A DNA stretch of 64,000 bases from Trichormus sp. M33_DOE_039 (lineage in GTDB: Bacteria; Cyanobacteriota; Cyanobacteriia; Cyanobacteriales; Nostocaceae): contig DVDT01000018.1 in NCBI GenBank assembly GCA_015296085.1, forward strand, positions 1 to 64,000, given 5' to 3'. Below the pieces are notes generated by a model that was not told the origin of the DNA, did not search any database, and worked only from the letters and a program-made list of their open reading frames with translations. This document shows, piece after piece, positions 45,833 through 51,515 of the stretch (positions are counted from its first letter, which is position 1; every line of letters starts with the position of its first letter). The translations under genes and the position numbers were made by a program.

Positions 45833-46474
45833 TTATCCAATATATCCAAAGACTGCCAATAATATAAGAAAATACAATGCTAAAGATAACATTACTACAA
45901 ATCCAACTATGATTGGGACTATGACTGTAATTAGGCTATCGGGATGCGGATAAAATCGCCCAAAATAAAAGTATAAGGCTTCAAACGCATTTATACCACT
46001 CCAAATAGACAAAATACTTAGAAAACCTTGCAATAGTACGCCATTCTTTATTCCATCATCTAGGATTCTCAGACTAGCGATCGGCTTGATCATAATTCGC
46101 CACTTGATTTCTGCTTTTTGCTTAGGGCTTAATTGTAAATCTTCAATGGAAACTATATCAGCTGCCGATGCTTGAATGCGTTGGCAAGTCACGGTTTGTT
46201 TGCCGTAAGTTACCTGACATTCCCTACTAGATTGACTTTTTACTATTAATCGTAAAAAGTCAATATTCATCTCACAGTGTAATGAATCTTTTTCCTCGCA
46301 GGCTACCAAGTAACCCGGAATTACGATAGATGACTCATTTGGTTGCGCAATAACTATTTCAAACAATTTGTTTATAGCTCGATCACGAATCAGCAAGAAT
46401 GTGATCAAACACACCATGAGTAAGTTGAAAATCAGGCGATTTTCTCGACTCATACGCGTTTTTTGAGTTTTCAT
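45833..46474 (-). CDS. membrane protein of unknown function
   Basis: 213 residues: N-terminal membrane segment (about 12-30), an extracytoplasmic region with four or five cysteines (CEEKDSLHCE, RECQVTYGKQTVTCQRI), then two further hydrophobic stretches (about 144-170 and 179-210). The family is not recognised. It is the last gene of the minus-strand run that begins with the dynamin-like genes, 79 bp behind the J-domain dynamin. A role with it is possible but unproven. Confidence 0.55.
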   Translation of the reverse strand: MKTQKTRMSRENRLIFNLLMVCLITFLLIRDRAINKLFEIVIAQPNESSIVIPGYLVACEEKDSLHCEMNIDFLRLIVKSQSSRECQVTYGKQTVTCQRIQASAADIVSIEDLQLSPKQKAEIKWRIMIKPIASLRILDDGIKNGVLLQGFLSILSIWSGINAFEALYFYFGRFYPHPDSLITVIVPIIVGFVVMLSLALYFLILLAVFGYIG

Positions 46475-46553
46475 TATCTATGCACATACCTACAATTTCA
46501 TCAGTTATTCAGTATTCTTAATCTCTGTTCACTGATTTAATTATCTTAGACTT

Positions 46554-48779
46554 CTATTTATTACTAGATAAAACTGTATAAGCTTCATTAAACAAACGCA
46601 TTTTTTCTTGCGCTTGTTTTTGCATCTGTGGTTGGTTAACAAATAAATCTGGATGCCATTTTTTGACTAAAGTTTTATAAGTCTGTTTAACATCAGCAAA
46701 GGCAGCATCTTGTGGTAAACCTAAGATTTTATAAGCGCGCGCAATTTTATCTTTTTCGGCTTGGCTTTGGGGTGGTTTAGGTGCTTGCTGATTTTGAGTT
46801 TGCGTTGTTTGTTGCTTATTATTTTGATAACCAGGAGAACACATTTGCGCTTTCATTTGTGCAATTTCTTCATCTAGTTCCCAGTTACGAAATTTTGCTT
46901 CTACCTCTGCGGGATTGGGTGCTGGCTTTGCCTTTGGAGGCGGTGGTGAATAGACTTGTTGTTTTGGTGACTCAACTTTTTTCTCAGTAGTTTTAGGTGT
47001 GTTTTCCGGTTGTGGCGGACGAGTATAAATTCGTTCTTGCTGTCGATCAGATTTTTGTTGAGGTTGAGGTTGACTAACTTTTGGTGTTTCTGTATAGGGT
47101 TGATATTTATTAGGAATTTTGGCTTTCTCTAACTCAATCAGTAATTGATTAAATTCCTGTTGCAGCCGCCTTAATTCTTCACGGTTTTTAATTACTTCTT
47201 GTGGTTCTTGAGCAATTTGAAAGCAAATCACTTTTTCAGCTTGATGTTCAAATTCTGATAATATTGATAAGGCTTGGCTACTAAATTTAGATAAATAATC
47301 TTCAATTGCATTTATACAGAGTCTAGCAACTTGTTGATGATATGATTCAGTAGCTGATTTTTCTTCCAGCTTTTGAATATTTTTATTTAATACATAAGAA
47401 ATACTCCCAACCACAGCAGCACCTACAGGCCCGCCTAATAACCAACCAATCCCACCACCTACCGCGACTGCTCCCGGTTCACTTAACAGTTCATTATTAT
47501 CTGACTTAGACGGTAAAGTAATTTGTGGTTCTGGAGGGAAAGGAATTAATAAGTCTTCTGGACGTTCTTCTTTGAAAAAATCGTAAGATTGATATAACCA
47601 TTTCATGACAGCTAACTGTAACTCTGTTAGGTCTTTTTTGAGATTATTGATTTGCCAAGATTTGAAATTATTTTCTGCCAAAGCGACAGCCGCGTCAGCT
47701 TGATATTTAGCTAATAATTTCGGTAAATATAACCAATCGCTTAACTCAGATAGACTCTTATTAAAGCCTTGTTTAATGAGATTTTGAGCTTTTTGTTTAA
47801 TTTCTATTTTGGCATTTTGTTTGTCATCAAAAGTTTTAAATTCGTTAGCAATAAGGTCAATTTTATTTTTTAATGATAATTGGATTTGAGATGCGATCGC
47901 CTGCACTCTCGGCAGCCTCACATCACCCCGATTTTGTTGTAAAATACTGACGACATTTTGCAATGCTGTCTCAAAAGCTACTAAGCCGCTACTACTAGCC
48001 GCAGCCACATCACCTTTTAATCTAGCTCGTAAAGCAGGTAAAGCATCAACACGATATAAGTTACTAAAACCCGGAGGTAATTCTGCGCGGAAACTTTCTG
48101 CAACAAACCGCAGCCGATTCTGCACTTGTTTTTGTTCTTCTGGGTCAAGTAAATTAATAAAGTTAGCAACAAAAATAACTGTCTTAATATTTCTATCTAA
48201 TAACCAATCTCGTAGATTTTCCCGTTCTCCTAAAGTCATCAATTTACGTGCATCCAGTAACTGTACAACTAAATCTGCACTGAAAAGTTGCTGTCTCACT
48301 AAATTATCCTGCTCATCTCTATCATTAGTTCCTGGTAAATCAATAAACTCTACACCAGTTTCTAAAAAAGTATGAGGACAAAAAACTTCCACAGATGCTA
48401 CATCTTTTCGCATCTGTCTATCACCATCTAGAATTGCATATTGCTGTAAAACTTCTGTACCACTACGATAAATTTCCGTACCATCTCGCAACATGATGCG
48501 AGTTCTGACATCAGAACCATATTTTACATTAATTGCTGCGCCTGTAGTCGGAATTAAATCTATAGGTAATGTACGAGTTCCTAAAATAGCATTTAATAAA
48601 GTAGACTTACCATGATTAAAAGGGCCAAAAACTGCAATTCTAAAATTAGGGTTATTTAGGTAATTACCAATATCAATCACATCTTGATATAGCTGTGATG
48701 CGCGTTCCAAACCAAGTAAGCTAGACGCAGATTTCAGAGCATCCACTAAATCTTTATATTTTTTATCCTGTTGTGACAT
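46554..48779 (-). CDS. dynamin-like GTPase fused to a C-terminal J-domain
   Basis: 741 residues from ATG 48779; the frame extends to 48836, but those 19 residues look non-coding. Dynamin-type GTPase (about 40-290): G1 GPFNHGKST (52-60), G2 threonine in IPTTGA, G3 DLPGTND. The G4 position reads VANFINLLD and lacks a standard N/TKxD. A helical stalk with a Gly-rich hydrophobic segment (about 435-465, paddle-like) is followed by a Pro/Gln-rich linker (about 580-665). At the end is a J-domain with HPD in KKWHPDLF near 707. The J-domain should recruit an Hsp70. A membrane-remodelling GTPase is likely. Confidence 0.9.
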   Translation of the reverse strand: MSQQDKKYKDLVDALKSASSLLGLERASQLYQDVIDIGNYLNNPNFRIAVFGPFNHGKSTLLNAILGTRTLPIDLIPTTGAAINVKYGSDVRTRIMLRDGTEIYRSGTEVLQQYAILDGDRQMRKDVASVEVFCPHTFLETGVEFIDLPGTNDRDEQDNLVRQQLFSADLVVQLLDARKLMTLGERENLRDWLLDRNIKTVIFVANFINLLDPEEQKQVQNRLRFVAESFRAELPPGFSNLYRVDALPALRARLKGDVAAASSSGLVAFETALQNVVSILQQNRGDVRLPRVQAIASQIQLSLKNKIDLIANEFKTFDDKQNAKIEIKQKAQNLIKQGFNKSLSELSDWLYLPKLLAKYQADAAVALAENNFKSWQINNLKKDLTELQLAVMKWLYQSYDFFKEERPEDLLIPFPPEPQITLPSKSDNNELLSEPGAVAVGGGIGWLLGGPVGAAVVGSISYVLNKNIQKLEEKSATESYHQQVARLCINAIEDYLSKFSSQALSILSEFEHQAEKVICFQIAQEPQEVIKNREELRRLQQEFNQLLIELEKAKIPNKYQPYTETPKVSQPQPQQKSDRQQERIYTRPPQPENTPKTTEKKVESPKQQVYSPPPPKAKPAPNPAEVEAKFRNWELDEEIAQMKAQMCSPGYQNNKQQTTQTQNQQAPKPPQSQAEKDKIARAYKILGLPQDAAFADVKQTYKTLVKKWHPDLFVNQPQMQKQAQEKMRLFNEAYTVLSSNK

Positions 48780-48866
48780 ATTTTCATTACCTGTTCCCAG
48801 AGTTATTTTACCTTGCAACACAAAGCTTACTTTCAAACTCTGCGTTACTCTGCACTATTTTGCGTT

Positions 48867-49077
48867 TAAACTACCCCCTTTAATTGATGTCAAGAGCAGG
48901 GTAGTTTCATACAACCAGAGAAAAAATAAACCTAGCTTTCAAAGCCTCTCTCCCCGTGGGGGAGAGGTTTGGAGAGGGGTCAAAATCTCGGTTACAAAAA
49001 GAAAAATCAAAACTTATAGATTTTTCTTTTTTTGTACGAAACCACCCTGCCTTAATTGATGTCAAGAGGGGTAAAAC
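48867..49077. repeat. duplicated block around a 130-bp spacer
   Basis: TTAATTGATGTCAAGAG occurs at 48880-48896 and 49052-49068, identical over 17 bp. The flanking sequences form an inverted pair, CAGGGTAGTTTCATACAA (48897-48914) and its near-complement at 49032-49049 (16 of 18). The spacer holds a CTCTCCCC/GGGGGAGAG hairpin (about 48951-48968). It lies between the two dynamin-like genes and may be a MITE-like element. Confidence 0.65.
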
Positions 49078-49082
49078 ATTTA

Positions 49083-51170
49083 CTAATAACTATAGTAATT
49101 CAAAAGATTACTATAAGCCGCCTCAATCTTTTGTAATTGAGCTATGACATTTTCCTGCAAAGTTTTAAAACGCTTTAGTTCACCTTCCCGATTGATTTCG
49201 CGTGTTTCTTTTTGCTTGAGTAGATTATCTAACTCTGATTTGCGTGAATTAATATCATCATTAATCCGTTTGCTCACTTCTTTTTCATAGCTATCAAAGC
49301 ATTCTTTGACTGCATCATATACAGTTTGTGATTGCTCATTAGCAACTTGTGGCAAATATTTAACTAACTCTTTTTTAGCAGTTTTTACTAATTCTTTACG
49401 TGCTTGATCTGCTTGTAAGAAACCCACTCCTAAACCCAGTAAAGCGAATCCAATAGGCCCAAGCATCACACCTGTAACTGCGGTAATGATACTCCCCACA
49501 CCAATGACTGTGAAATAATTTAACAAGATATTTTTCCAATCAAATCCAACACCAGCCATTGCGACACCAGCTAAGTTTCCCCTAGAAAGGGATAATAATC
49601 CCATTGCCCATTTTGCCCAAGCAGGAGAATTATCTTCTTCTGTACTAGTATTATTGGCATTGACTTTAACTTGTTTATCGGTGAGTTTTTCTGTGATTTG
49701 TTCTGTGACCTTATGATAAGATGCACCATATTGCGCTGCACTACGGGACAGTTCTTTAAAAGCTGCATTAATATCTTTTTCAGCAGTTAAAGTCCAAGCC
49801 GCACACTTATCAGTCATGTATTGTTCAAAAGCCTTTTGTAGTGCTGCATTAAATGCTTCTCGTTTACCATTGCTCAAAAAATCCCACAGATTTAACTCTG
49901 GTTGGTAGCGTAAGAAATCACTTTCAAAAGTATTGCCTAAATTCAAAACATAACTACGGAAAGATTCTGAGATTTTCCTGGCTTGAGTATCTCTGGTATT
50001 GAAAATTTCTCTTTGAAATTGATCTCGAATATTACTGAGCTTTTTAAATTCTGGCTCTACAGAATCAATGCGTGTTTTTAATTGGGCAACATCTTGATCA
50101 AGTAATGGTATTCTGCGATCTATGGCTTCGCGCGTATGGTTAACTGCTTGTCTAGCTAGGGTTCTGACCTGTCGAAGTTCTGCGATCGCTCTTTCTCTGG
50201 TAAGAAAAGTATTCAGCGCATCCATGAATTCCTGGAAGCCAGTCCCGGCTAAATCTGCTTGGGAATCCTTTAACCGTCGCCGCAGTGCTTGAATTGATGA
50301 CAGTTCAAATACTCGCTCATCATAAATGTTTTGACCATCTACATGACAGTATTCAGCTAAATTGGCCTTGAAAACTTGCCTGAGTCTATTCTCAGCGGCT
50401 TTCAACTCTTCTAGATCATCAGGATCAATTAATGATTCTTTTACCTGATCCCAAGCATTAATTAAGAAGAAAACTGATAAACCGCGCCCTTTAATATAAT
50501 TCTCTAAATAACGACGTTCACCCAAAGTACAAGGTTGAGAAGCCCTCATCACGAACAGAATAGCATGGCAATTATTCACATATCCTAAAGATAATTCATT
50601 TCGTGCTTCTGTATCGTTTAATCCTGGACTATCAACAATTTCAATTCCTTTTTCCAGCAAGGTTAAGGGATATTCTACAACCGCATACTCCACATCAGGA
50701 AACGCTTGTTTTTTCTCTTGTTCTAACTTTTTTGCTTCGGCAGGATCAATTGTATATTTATATTTGAAGCTCTGAAAATCTAGCTGTTGTGGGCTTTTGC
50801 CATCATTAAAATGAATTGTAACTCTTTTTTCTGGGCCGTAGCGTAAAACAGTTAAAACAGCTGTACAGGGATTAACATCACTAGGAAGTAAATTTTCGCC
50901 AATTAAAGCATTGAGAAATGTGCTTTTGCCACGTTTCATATCACCTAAAACTAACAGGCGAAATACACCTTTTTTCAGGTTTTTACTAGCTATGTCAATA
51001 TCTTCTAAATCTCTTCCTAAACTTAGCTTACCAGATGAAGATTCTCCATCTAATTCCGCTTGATTAATAGTTTCAGAAAGATTTTGTAAACACATCGCCA
51101 TTTCAGAACGTACCTGAGCAACCCGTTCTAAGTCTTGAATGAATTTGTCAGATGCTACTTGACTCACCAT
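49083..51170 (-). CDS. bacterial dynamin-like protein (BDLP)
   Basis: 695 residues. Very close in length and wording to the Nostoc punctiforme BDLP whose structure is known. GTPase domain: G1 GDMKRGKST (76-84), G2 in SDVNPCTA, G3 DSPGLND, G4 region LINAWDQ. Long stalk helices (about 330-510) flank a hydrophobic paddle (about 545-615, with GLLSLSRGN and GVMLGPIGFALLGLGVGF), and an HSPLLNxx-like terminal helical bundle ends in YYSY. BDLP binds lipid and tubulates membranes in a GTP-dependent way. The upstream gene at 51189 is 18 bp away, suggesting an operon. Confidence 0.96.
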   Translation of the reverse strand: MVSQVASDKFIQDLERVAQVRSEMAMCLQNLSETINQAELDGESSSGKLSLGRDLEDIDIASKNLKKGVFRLLVLGDMKRGKSTFLNALIGENLLPSDVNPCTAVLTVLRYGPEKRVTIHFNDGKSPQQLDFQSFKYKYTIDPAEAKKLEQEKKQAFPDVEYAVVEYPLTLLEKGIEIVDSPGLNDTEARNELSLGYVNNCHAILFVMRASQPCTLGERRYLENYIKGRGLSVFFLINAWDQVKESLIDPDDLEELKAAENRLRQVFKANLAEYCHVDGQNIYDERVFELSSIQALRRRLKDSQADLAGTGFQEFMDALNTFLTRERAIAELRQVRTLARQAVNHTREAIDRRIPLLDQDVAQLKTRIDSVEPEFKKLSNIRDQFQREIFNTRDTQARKISESFRSYVLNLGNTFESDFLRYQPELNLWDFLSNGKREAFNAALQKAFEQYMTDKCAAWTLTAEKDINAAFKELSRSAAQYGASYHKVTEQITEKLTDKQVKVNANNTSTEEDNSPAWAKWAMGLLSLSRGNLAGVAMAGVGFDWKNILLNYFTVIGVGSIITAVTGVMLGPIGFALLGLGVGFLQADQARKELVKTAKKELVKYLPQVANEQSQTVYDAVKECFDSYEKEVSKRINDDINSRKSELDNLLKQKETREINREGELKRFKTLQENVIAQLQKIEAAYSNLLNYYSY

Positions 51171-51188
51171 AGTAATTAGTCCTTAAAT

Positions 51189-51515
51189 TTAAGATGATTT
51201 TTTGCGATTTTCCAAAAATAGTTTGTAAGCGACCCAACCCAGAACTGCTATGATTACAAAACCTGCTAAAACTGATGCTACTCTCACAGCCACTAAAGCT
51301 ACTACACCAAGCGTAAATAGTTTTCCTGCAAGGATTGCTTTTTTCACCCAAGGTTTAGGAGAATTTTCTGCTTGGTGTTTTACCGTCTGATGAAATGGTG
51401 CATCATTTGCAGACATTTGTTGTTCCATTTCTCGGAGTCGTAATTCTACTTCTTTCTCTCGCAGTGTTCTTTCTCGTTGCTCTAGTTCATGATTGCGATG
51501 ATCTTGAGATGTCAT
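51189..51515 (-). CDS. small coiled-coil/membrane protein upstream of BDLP
   Basis: 108 residues from ATG 51515; a GTG at 51548 would add 11. A charged helix (about 5-35, RERTLREKEVELRLREMEQQ) is followed by a basic linker and one long or two short hydrophobic segments (about 63-95), then a basic tail FLENRKKSS. Layout: membrane protein with a cytoplasmic coiled coil. It ends 18 bp before the BDLP start, so it may be a membrane partner for the dynamin. I recognise no family. Confidence 0.65.
   Translation of the reverse strand: MTSQDHRNHELEQRERTLREKEVELRLREMEQQMSANDAPFHQTVKHQAENSPKPWVKKAILAGKLFTLGVVALVAVRVASVLAGFVIIAVLGWVAYKLFLENRKKSS

Follow-up and report, generated by a model that had tools for sequence, protein, structure and literature searches.

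The dynamin-like GTPase BDLP1 provided a founding structure of bacterial dynamin research. Its cellular role is still unclear, and in Nostoc punctiforme it stands in a tandem arrangement with a second dynamin-like protein (Jilly 2018, PMC5827413). BDLP1 and this neighbour, B2IZD2 (the 'Tandem B' and 'Tandem A' dynamins), are the same pair as the one found in the DNA analysed here, a stretch of 64,000 nucleotides from the cyanobacterium Trichormus sp. M33_DOE_039 (contig DVDT01000018.1, assembly GCA_015296085.1), termed the window. The neighbour in the window, termed DLP2-J, ends in a J-domain, and the pair is preceded by a gene for a small membrane protein, TM119.

A C-terminal DnaJ-like domain in the neighbour of BDLP1, and the idea that it binds DnaK, occupy one sentence of Liu 2018 (PMC6104087). 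The J-domain beside BDLP1 and its link to DnaK, both raised in an earlier note made from the window's letters, had already been published. The word DnaJ is absent from the full text of Jilly 2018 (PMC5827413), and in the papers found to contain both 'bacterial dynamin-like' and 'J-domain', mentions of the latter are confined to reference lists. Available parts of the literature on the N. punctiforme pair make no mention of TM119, of a lineage restriction of the J-carrying tail, of orthologues without a J-domain (J-less orthologues) or of a helix resembling alpha5 of Vipp1. New here are the cassette with TM119, the apparently single gain of the tail, the match of a helix in the linker ahead of the J-domain, and a parallel in a WD40-J protein.

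The J-domain of Auxilin/GAK brings Hsp70 (Hsc70) to a membrane coat. By analogy, the J-domain of DLP2-J may recruit Hsp70 to a membrane-coat assembly. Unlike Auxilin/GAK, DLP2-J has its J-domain fused to a dynamin superfamily GTPase, and its candidate docking element is PspA-helix-like. The chloroplast J-protein CDJ2, unlike DLP2-J, is not known as a dynamin. It acts with HSP70B on the VIPP1 polymer, and the HSP70/CDJ2/CGE1 system both assembles and disassembles Vipp1 (PMC6882379). In cyanobacteria, Synechocystis Vipp1 binds DnaK2 and DnaK3 (PMC4297356), and the available part of the literature on this binding names no cyanobacterial J-protein for Vipp1-DnaK. IM30/Vipp1, Hsp70 and dynamin-like proteins have been named side by side as thylakoid formation factors (PMC7281324). 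Adjacent heterotypic dynamin pairs, as here, are also known as DLP1/DLP2 of Campylobacter and DynA/DynB of Streptomyces, for which no J-domain is described in the available portion of the source (PMC6104087).

The dynamin cassette

The genes of the locus follow one another on the minus strand in the order TM119, BDLP1, DLP2-J. The principal features are:

51189..51515, minus strand, TM119, small membrane protein that opens the cassette, 108 amino acids (aa), start ATG 51515
49083..51170, minus strand, BDLP1 orthologue, dynamin-like GTPase, 695 aa, starting 18 bp past TM119
46554..48779, minus strand, DLP2-J, 741 aa from ATG 48779 (listed frame 46554-48836 from TTG 48836)
46842..46913, minus strand, alpha5-like helix in the disordered linker of DLP2-J, PAEVEAKFRNWELDEEIAQMKAQM
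46563..46745, minus strand, J-domain of DLP2-J, PF00226 above cut-off, HPD at 46647-46655

Two different dynamin-like genes in one strand run, the second ending in an HPD-containing J-domain, had been read correctly in the earlier note. The BDLP1 orthologue aligns end to end (1-695) with 2j68, the BDLP chain of N. punctiforme (phmmer, E = 0), and matches the Pfam bacterial dynamin helical domain (PF21808, 3e-181) and Dynamin_N (PF00350, 9e-34). DLP2-J probably starts at ATG 48779. This is residue 20 in the frame as listed, and most orthologue matches begin near it. It has an N-terminal Dynamin_N (8.4e-26, above the Pfam cut-off) and a C-terminal DnaJ domain (PF00226, 2.1e-12; 47 bits against a cut-off of 27.8). 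DnaJ models match it solely across their J-domain, and with an HPD J-domain and no DnaJ Gly/Phe or zinc-finger parts it has the make-up of a class C J-domain protein.

Conservation was followed in the family of the window (code f1; 145 genomes), with full-length DLP2-J defined as frames of 702 aa or more with matches reaching at least residue 756, and a BDLP1 match as E up to 1e-60. Full-length DLP2-J is present in 71 of the 145 genomes and all 71 match BDLP1, the match being partial in G025 and G026 and containing two stops in G060. The median distance between the genes is 147 bp over 70 pairs on one contig (under 1 kb in 69, 2.3 kb in one); the remaining pair of the 71 is split between two contigs. 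The earlier note had proposed a pair and asked how often the two genes occur together, with separation in most genomes counting against it; with 69 of 71 within 1 kb, the pair stands. BDLP1 sequence without full-length DLP2-J occurs in three genomes, G068 (broken DLP2), G027 (truncated BDLP1) and G008 (fragments). Neither gene reaches the thresholds in 71 of the 145, some of which have remnants. As read from the matches to the two genes, ten genera contain both pair-carrying and pair-less genomes, and therefore joint loss or gain must have been repeated. Partial deletions, frame breaks or contig ends lie within the cassette at nine fetched loci. BDLP paralogues without a nearby DLP2 match are found in G000 (contig 102) and G116; row set A3 is without the G116 copy. 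In a 386-genome sample of the phylum, DLP2 was matched in 34 genomes and BDLP1 in 34 at the cut-offs used, 32 being shared. Co-retention and synteny show that BDLP1 and DLP2 form a pair of heterotypic dynamins, for which we infer physical contact.

TM119 displays a charged N-terminal helix followed by a single long hydrophobic helix. It matches PF11239 DUF3040 in Pfam (1.9e-7), and its fold model has helices at 3-36 and 55-107 with a predicted local distance difference test score (pLDDT) of 75.6. Of the 33 named loci, 31 have a tblastn match to TM119 upstream of BDLP1; the loci were collected with exact peptide patterns of the window's protein, a search that favours close relatives (row set A1 holds 30 of the 33 plus the window). 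The gap between TM119 and BDLP1 is 5-22 bp in 21 of the 22 traced among the 31, and 277 bp in the other. Row set A5 has 21 of the 31 TM119 matches plus the window; for nine of the 31 the frame was left untraced. TM119 is also present at 9 of 12 J-less BDLP1 loci. Small membrane genes had been noted on each side of the dynamins. The upstream one belongs with them; the downstream one (45833-46474) was rejected as part of the cassette, having a match at none of the 33 loci. TM119 - BDLP1 - DLP2 is a conserved three-gene membrane-remodelling cassette, newly described here, in which TM119 probably anchors or scaffolds the dynamin pair.

Variant arrangements of the dynamin genes were also seen. L139 and L142 have two tandem BDLP genes ahead of DLP2, which gives a run of three dynamins after TM119. 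At L148 (G108 C1:8200000-8214000) a BDLP paralogue, extended at its N-terminus by roughly 270 aa, adjoins a DO-GTPase gene and a DLP2 that is short and J-less; this looks like a different kind of cluster. L149 (G018 C1:8905000-8921000) is a J-less and distant pair of dynamins, one of which starts with a zinc-ribbon-like part, and may belong to the published 'chaperone clade'. An Hsp70-like gene lies about 3.3 kb off on the opposite strand and was left out of the evidence.

Origin of the J tail

Outside the window's family (families f4, f5, f6 and f10), DLP2 frames are 517-590 aa long and none of the 31 distinct sequences has HPD. In six J-less frames run through Pfam, and likewise in L144 from f22, there is Dynamin_N and no DnaJ. 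The 105 open frames gave 92 distinct sequences for alignment, 61 with and 31 without a J-domain, the latter including L080-L082, which are distant paralogues; L079 (split over two frames) and L078 (not listed by the frame filter) were left out. In a tree built without the tail, the 61 J-carrying sequences form one clade (SH-like approximate likelihood ratio test, 99) and the trait changes once. The tree is a quick one, with long branches among the J-less rows. Gain of the tail is simpler than loss, because the three outgroup paralogues have no J-domain. All 33 tail-bearing named loci, the product of a search favouring close relatives, are from the NCBI order Nostocales. On this sequence comparison the J tail was apparently gained once, late, in a Nostocales lineage, by a pair that exists without it elsewhere: in three other families, ten fetched loci (L136-L143, L152, L153) have J-less DLP2 beside BDLP1 on the same strand, the two genes being about 1.5 kb apart in L152 and about 2 kb apart in L153.

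The ratio of nonsynonymous to synonymous substitution rates (dN/dS; 142 pairs, 61 sequences) is 0.06 for the GTPase domain, 0.14 for the J-domain, 0.21 for the linker helix and 0.35-0.39 for the flanking linkers. HPD is kept in 60 of the 61 distinct sequences. By these codon comparisons, the J-domain is under purifying selection. The other sequence, DLP2-J of L042 (G054), has HHD in place of HPD.

Natural deletions of the GTPase have also been found. In G277 (L164, C153, 3888-4691 minus), TM119 is in frame with the DLP2 linker helix and J-domain in an open 268-aa frame; this genome is without a BDLP1 match and the GTPase part of DLP2 is lost. In G091 BDLP1 is absent and a 263-aa frame retains helix and J-domain. 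These two undated deletions show that the tail is able to stand alone and give no sign of necessity. The tail of the G277 fusion has a dN/dS of 0.20 against G099. This value cannot date the deletion, and therefore no claim is made that the tail was selected on its own.

A PspA/Vipp1-like helix in the linker

The linker between the dynamin part and the J-domain is poorly conserved outside one helix. The pattern FxxWE....[IM]..[MI]K is present in all 61 distinct J tails versus none of 31 J-less sequences, and its F, W, E, E and K positions are invariant. In an NCBIfam scan of 24 of the 59 distinct linkers (row set A2), all 24 match TIGR04376 (best E 1.1e-4), and the member shown aligns with the last 22 positions of this model. 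The sole other family listed was ecotin, with three linkers.

TIGR04376 (L166, L185-L197, L215 and others) is a cyanobacterial family without a named function. Its sequence suggests, along the entire length, a paralogue of PspA/Vipp1: it matches Vipp1/PspA structures at E 7e-5 (phmmer), and hhalign aligns it with Vipp1 over the full length (1-191 to 1-219; probability 96.7, E 5e-10, single comparison). When a profile of the linker helix was run against 12 genomes, the top match besides DLP2-J was a TIGR04376 gene in all 12 (E 4.6e-7 to 0.05), and the identity was confirmed in 11 of 11 members scanned. Run against 291 genomes with an E limit of 0.01, the profile matched in 85 of them: in 14 DLP2-J, in the fusion of G277 and at 88 further places. 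Of the 88, 83 lie in frames that have the size of TIGR04376, 185-257 aa (identity was read for G155 and for genomes of the 12-genome search); three of the remaining five are the WD40-J protein and two are in G297 and G198.

Profile-profile comparisons, each a single one, relate the linker to TIGR04376 (E 4e-10) and to Vipp1 residues 191-220 (E 3e-6). In N. punctiforme Vipp1 the axis of alpha5 has been placed from residue 194 to residue 219, and Vipp1 without alpha5 and alpha6 forms neither rings nor filaments (PMC8281802). With columns shuffled (150 each), maximum scores were 13.2 for TIGR04376 and 13.4 for Vipp1, versus real scores of 46.6 and 31.4. Among 72 windows along DLP2-J, the motif window gave the top score for each family (45.3 TIGR04376, 31.3 Vipp1), and the three best windows per family overlap the motif, one merely by its last residues. 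DLP2-J and TIGR04376 have W where Vipp1 has L. PF04012, which models the alpha1-alpha2 hairpin core and is matched in the PspA/Vipp1 family, was absent when DLP2-J was compared with Pfam at an E limit of 0.1. As far as its sequence indicates, DLP2-J is outside the PspA/Vipp1 family, and the alpha5-like helix alone is in common with Vipp1/IM30, PspA and TIGR04376.

A second protein combines these elements. The WD40-J protein, of about 590-608 aa, is found at L212 (G103 C1:4503000-), L213 (G080 C1:1306300-) and L214 (G114 C1:3354800-). It has a glycine-rich hydrophobic start, a segment resembling IM30 alpha4-alpha5, WD40 repeats and a C-terminal HPD J-domain, which is above the Pfam cut-off in all three copies (E 1e-11 to 8e-15); no dynamin part was seen. 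Profile comparison of the segment with IM30 gave a probability of 96.9, E 2e-10 and 44% identity over 52 columns. In the Pfam scan the G103 segment matches PF04012 positions 152-216 below the cut-off (E 0.001), and that of G114 has no match. Thus two proteins that are otherwise unrelated each have a J-domain next to a helix that appears IM30 alpha5-like.

Proposed function and its alternatives

The following scheme is proposed. DLP2 apparently acquired, once, a C-terminal module in which the J-domain follows a flexible linker; the linker contains the helix that resembles alpha5 of Vipp1/PspA and TIGR04376. The helix would dock on PspA-family subunits, replacing their own alpha5 on the neighbour's hairpin. 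TIGR04376 is the predicted first target, since it shares the W with DLP2-J where Vipp1 has L; Vipp1/IM30 would be the second. The J-domain would then recruit DnaK to the docked polymer, and Hsp70 might loosen or recycle the polymer as the dynamin pair acts on the same membrane. Precedents are the chloroplast HSP70/CDJ2/CGE1 system and the binding of DnaK2 and DnaK3 by Synechocystis Vipp1. From the domains, the cassette, the single J clade, the motif match and the purifying selection we infer docking, stimulation of Hsp70 and an effect on polymers. To judge from the helix and J-domain together, the tail probably directs Hsp70 to membrane-remodelling assemblies, by docking on ESCRT-III-like PspA-family polymers and not by dynamin uncoating alone. 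The complete account, from cassette and heterotypic pair to a singly gained tail that docks on these polymers and brings DnaK, is held tentatively, its chances being put a little below even. Such a tail on the BDLP1 partner, in nitrogen-fixing filamentous cyanobacteria, suggests a link between three membrane-maintenance systems.

Perhaps the tail is an adaptor between dynamin, ESCRT-III and Hsp70, its alpha5 mimic inserting into, capping or marking PspA-family polymers that the J-domain passes to DnaK, an idea that is possible and still rather doubtful. If this were true, DLP2-J and WD40-J would be cyanobacterial counterparts of chloroplast CDJ2, and dynamin, ESCRT-III-like and Hsp70 machines would be coupled within one bacterial polypeptide. 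It would also point to J-proteins able to direct DnaK onto Vipp1-type polymers in cyanobacteria. The cassette, the lineage-specific tail and the candidate docking helix give concrete partners for BDLP1.

Several observations weigh against docking on PspA-family polymers. The motif is about 25 residues long, a length at which common descent and convergence are indistinguishable. The Vipp1 match is weaker than that to TIGR04376 and requires a 4-residue gap, and model confidence at the helix is low (pLDDT 38-45). In a search of the PDB the helix profile listed no Vipp1 and chance-level matches only, among them an unrelated chain, NAD synthetase, at E 0.008; single weak matches therefore mean little. 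One linker matched an ABC-transporter model (E 0.05), and a J-less DLP2 (L053) matched the helix profile at E 0.04, the best J-less score. The weight of the helix argument is in the repeated matches to one family. As to that family, the PF04012 match of TIGR04376 is below the cut-off (E 0.0036), and its likeness to Vipp1 includes a coiled-coil background (tektins, E 3e-4). The TIGR04376 gene is on a different contig from the dynamin locus in G000, and the family is present also in genomes without DLP2-J, which fits a docking target and is no proof of one. No paper on TIGR04376, and none joining PspA, cyanobacteria and TIGR04375, was found in the literature searched, most subscription papers and bioRxiv being outside its coverage.

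The earlier note had proposed chaperone-assisted disassembly of a dynamin coat. In this auxilin-like scheme DLP2-J sits within a BDLP1/DLP2 coat, the J-domain brings DnaK to disassemble it, and the helix merely positions the J-domain. The conserved pair and the full DnaJ domain, covalently joined to a dynamin that is retained together with BDLP1, agree with it, as do the linker that appears flexible in the model, the auxilin precedent (PMC4436892) and a published clade of cyanobacterial dynamins that is followed by a DnaK gene (PMC5827413). The tail appears, however, to be a late addition, and other cyanobacterial families keep the pair with no J-domain, so that coat recycling there is independent of J and recruitment of Hsp70 through the tail is no general requirement for the pair. 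Uncoating also leaves unexplained both the PspA-family alpha5 match and the IM30-like helix beside a J-domain in the WD40 protein. By its sequence matches, the helix points to the PspA/IM30 family as the docking target, rather than or besides a dynamin coat; uncoating as the role of the tail is considered rather unlikely.

Alternatively, the J-domain could be a quality-control add-on that keeps an aggregation-prone GTPase soluble, the helix likeness being convergent coiled-coil. Cyanobacteria attach J-domains to TPR, WD40 and pentapeptide proteins: in the eight genomes searched, J-TPR, J-TPR-WD40 and J-pentapeptide proteins (repeats by eye) provide some of the closest other J-domains. The G277 fusion, which keeps the tail where no GTPase remains, also speaks for a generic tail. 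Against it stands the helix, with its five invariant residues, a dN/dS lower than that of the flanking linkers, and one family matched by 24 of 24 members at scores far above shuffles. J-less orthologues, moreover, manage tail-free. A generic tail is quite improbable.

The proposal of Liu et al. (2018), that the J-like tail chiefly dimerises DLP2 with BDLP1 much as an assembly domain does at the N-terminus of C. jejuni DLP1, which needs this extra domain for oligomerisation (PMC6104087), and for which the J-less pair genes on different contigs in G196 and the fragmented G467 might speak, is very improbable and was set aside as the main role, since J-less orthologues retain the pair at the ten loci described above and a clamp would not need the HPD that 60 of 61 sequences keep.

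The genome of the window (G000) has four full-length Hsp70 genes; no Hsp70 specific to pair-carrying genomes was seen in eight genomes, and the J-less G446 also has four.

Further features of DLP2

Additional features of DLP2 in the window are:

48600..48626, minus strand, G1/P-loop GPFNHGKST; GKST is kept in the listed J-carrying and J-less orthologue rows
48330..48341, minus strand, G3 DLPG, read from sequence
48153..48164, minus strand, degenerate G4 NFIN (instead of N/TKxD), read from sequence
47388..47474, minus strand, putative membrane-inserting paddle, a hydrophobic glycine-rich segment with a short helix in the model

Both dynamin genes have PF00350 above cut-off together with GxxxxGKS/T and DxPG, as expected of the dynamin superfamily. 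DLP2 lacks a G4 of the N/TKxD type. The BDLP1 orthologue has NAWD at G4, and solved BDLP1 (2j68) deviates in the same way, and so the dynamin assignment rests on domain and fold. The degenerate G4 of the J-carrying dynamin had been recognized correctly in the earlier note. NF[LIM]N is found at this position in the listed J-carrying and J-less orthologues alike; a connection between this motif and the J-domain was therefore rejected, and in these alignments the degenerate G4 appears to predate the J tail. A 20-residue window at 459, within the putative paddle, has a pairwise identity of 0.96 in J-carrying versus 0.74 in J-less sequences.

An AlphaFold model of DLP2-J (31 sequences) is of limited worth (mean pLDDT 64.9). 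It displays a dynamin/BDLP-like order of helices with the hydrophobic segment, then residues about 553-672 of 741 unstructured with one low-confidence helix within (623-646), and the terminal J-domain. Best Foldseek matches are BDLP 2j68/2j69 and IniA, with low TM-scores of 0.2-0.26.

A short sequence, ctcttgacatcaatta, is found twice by eye in the gap between BDLP1 and DLP2-J, at about 48880-48900 and 49045-49070 of the window.

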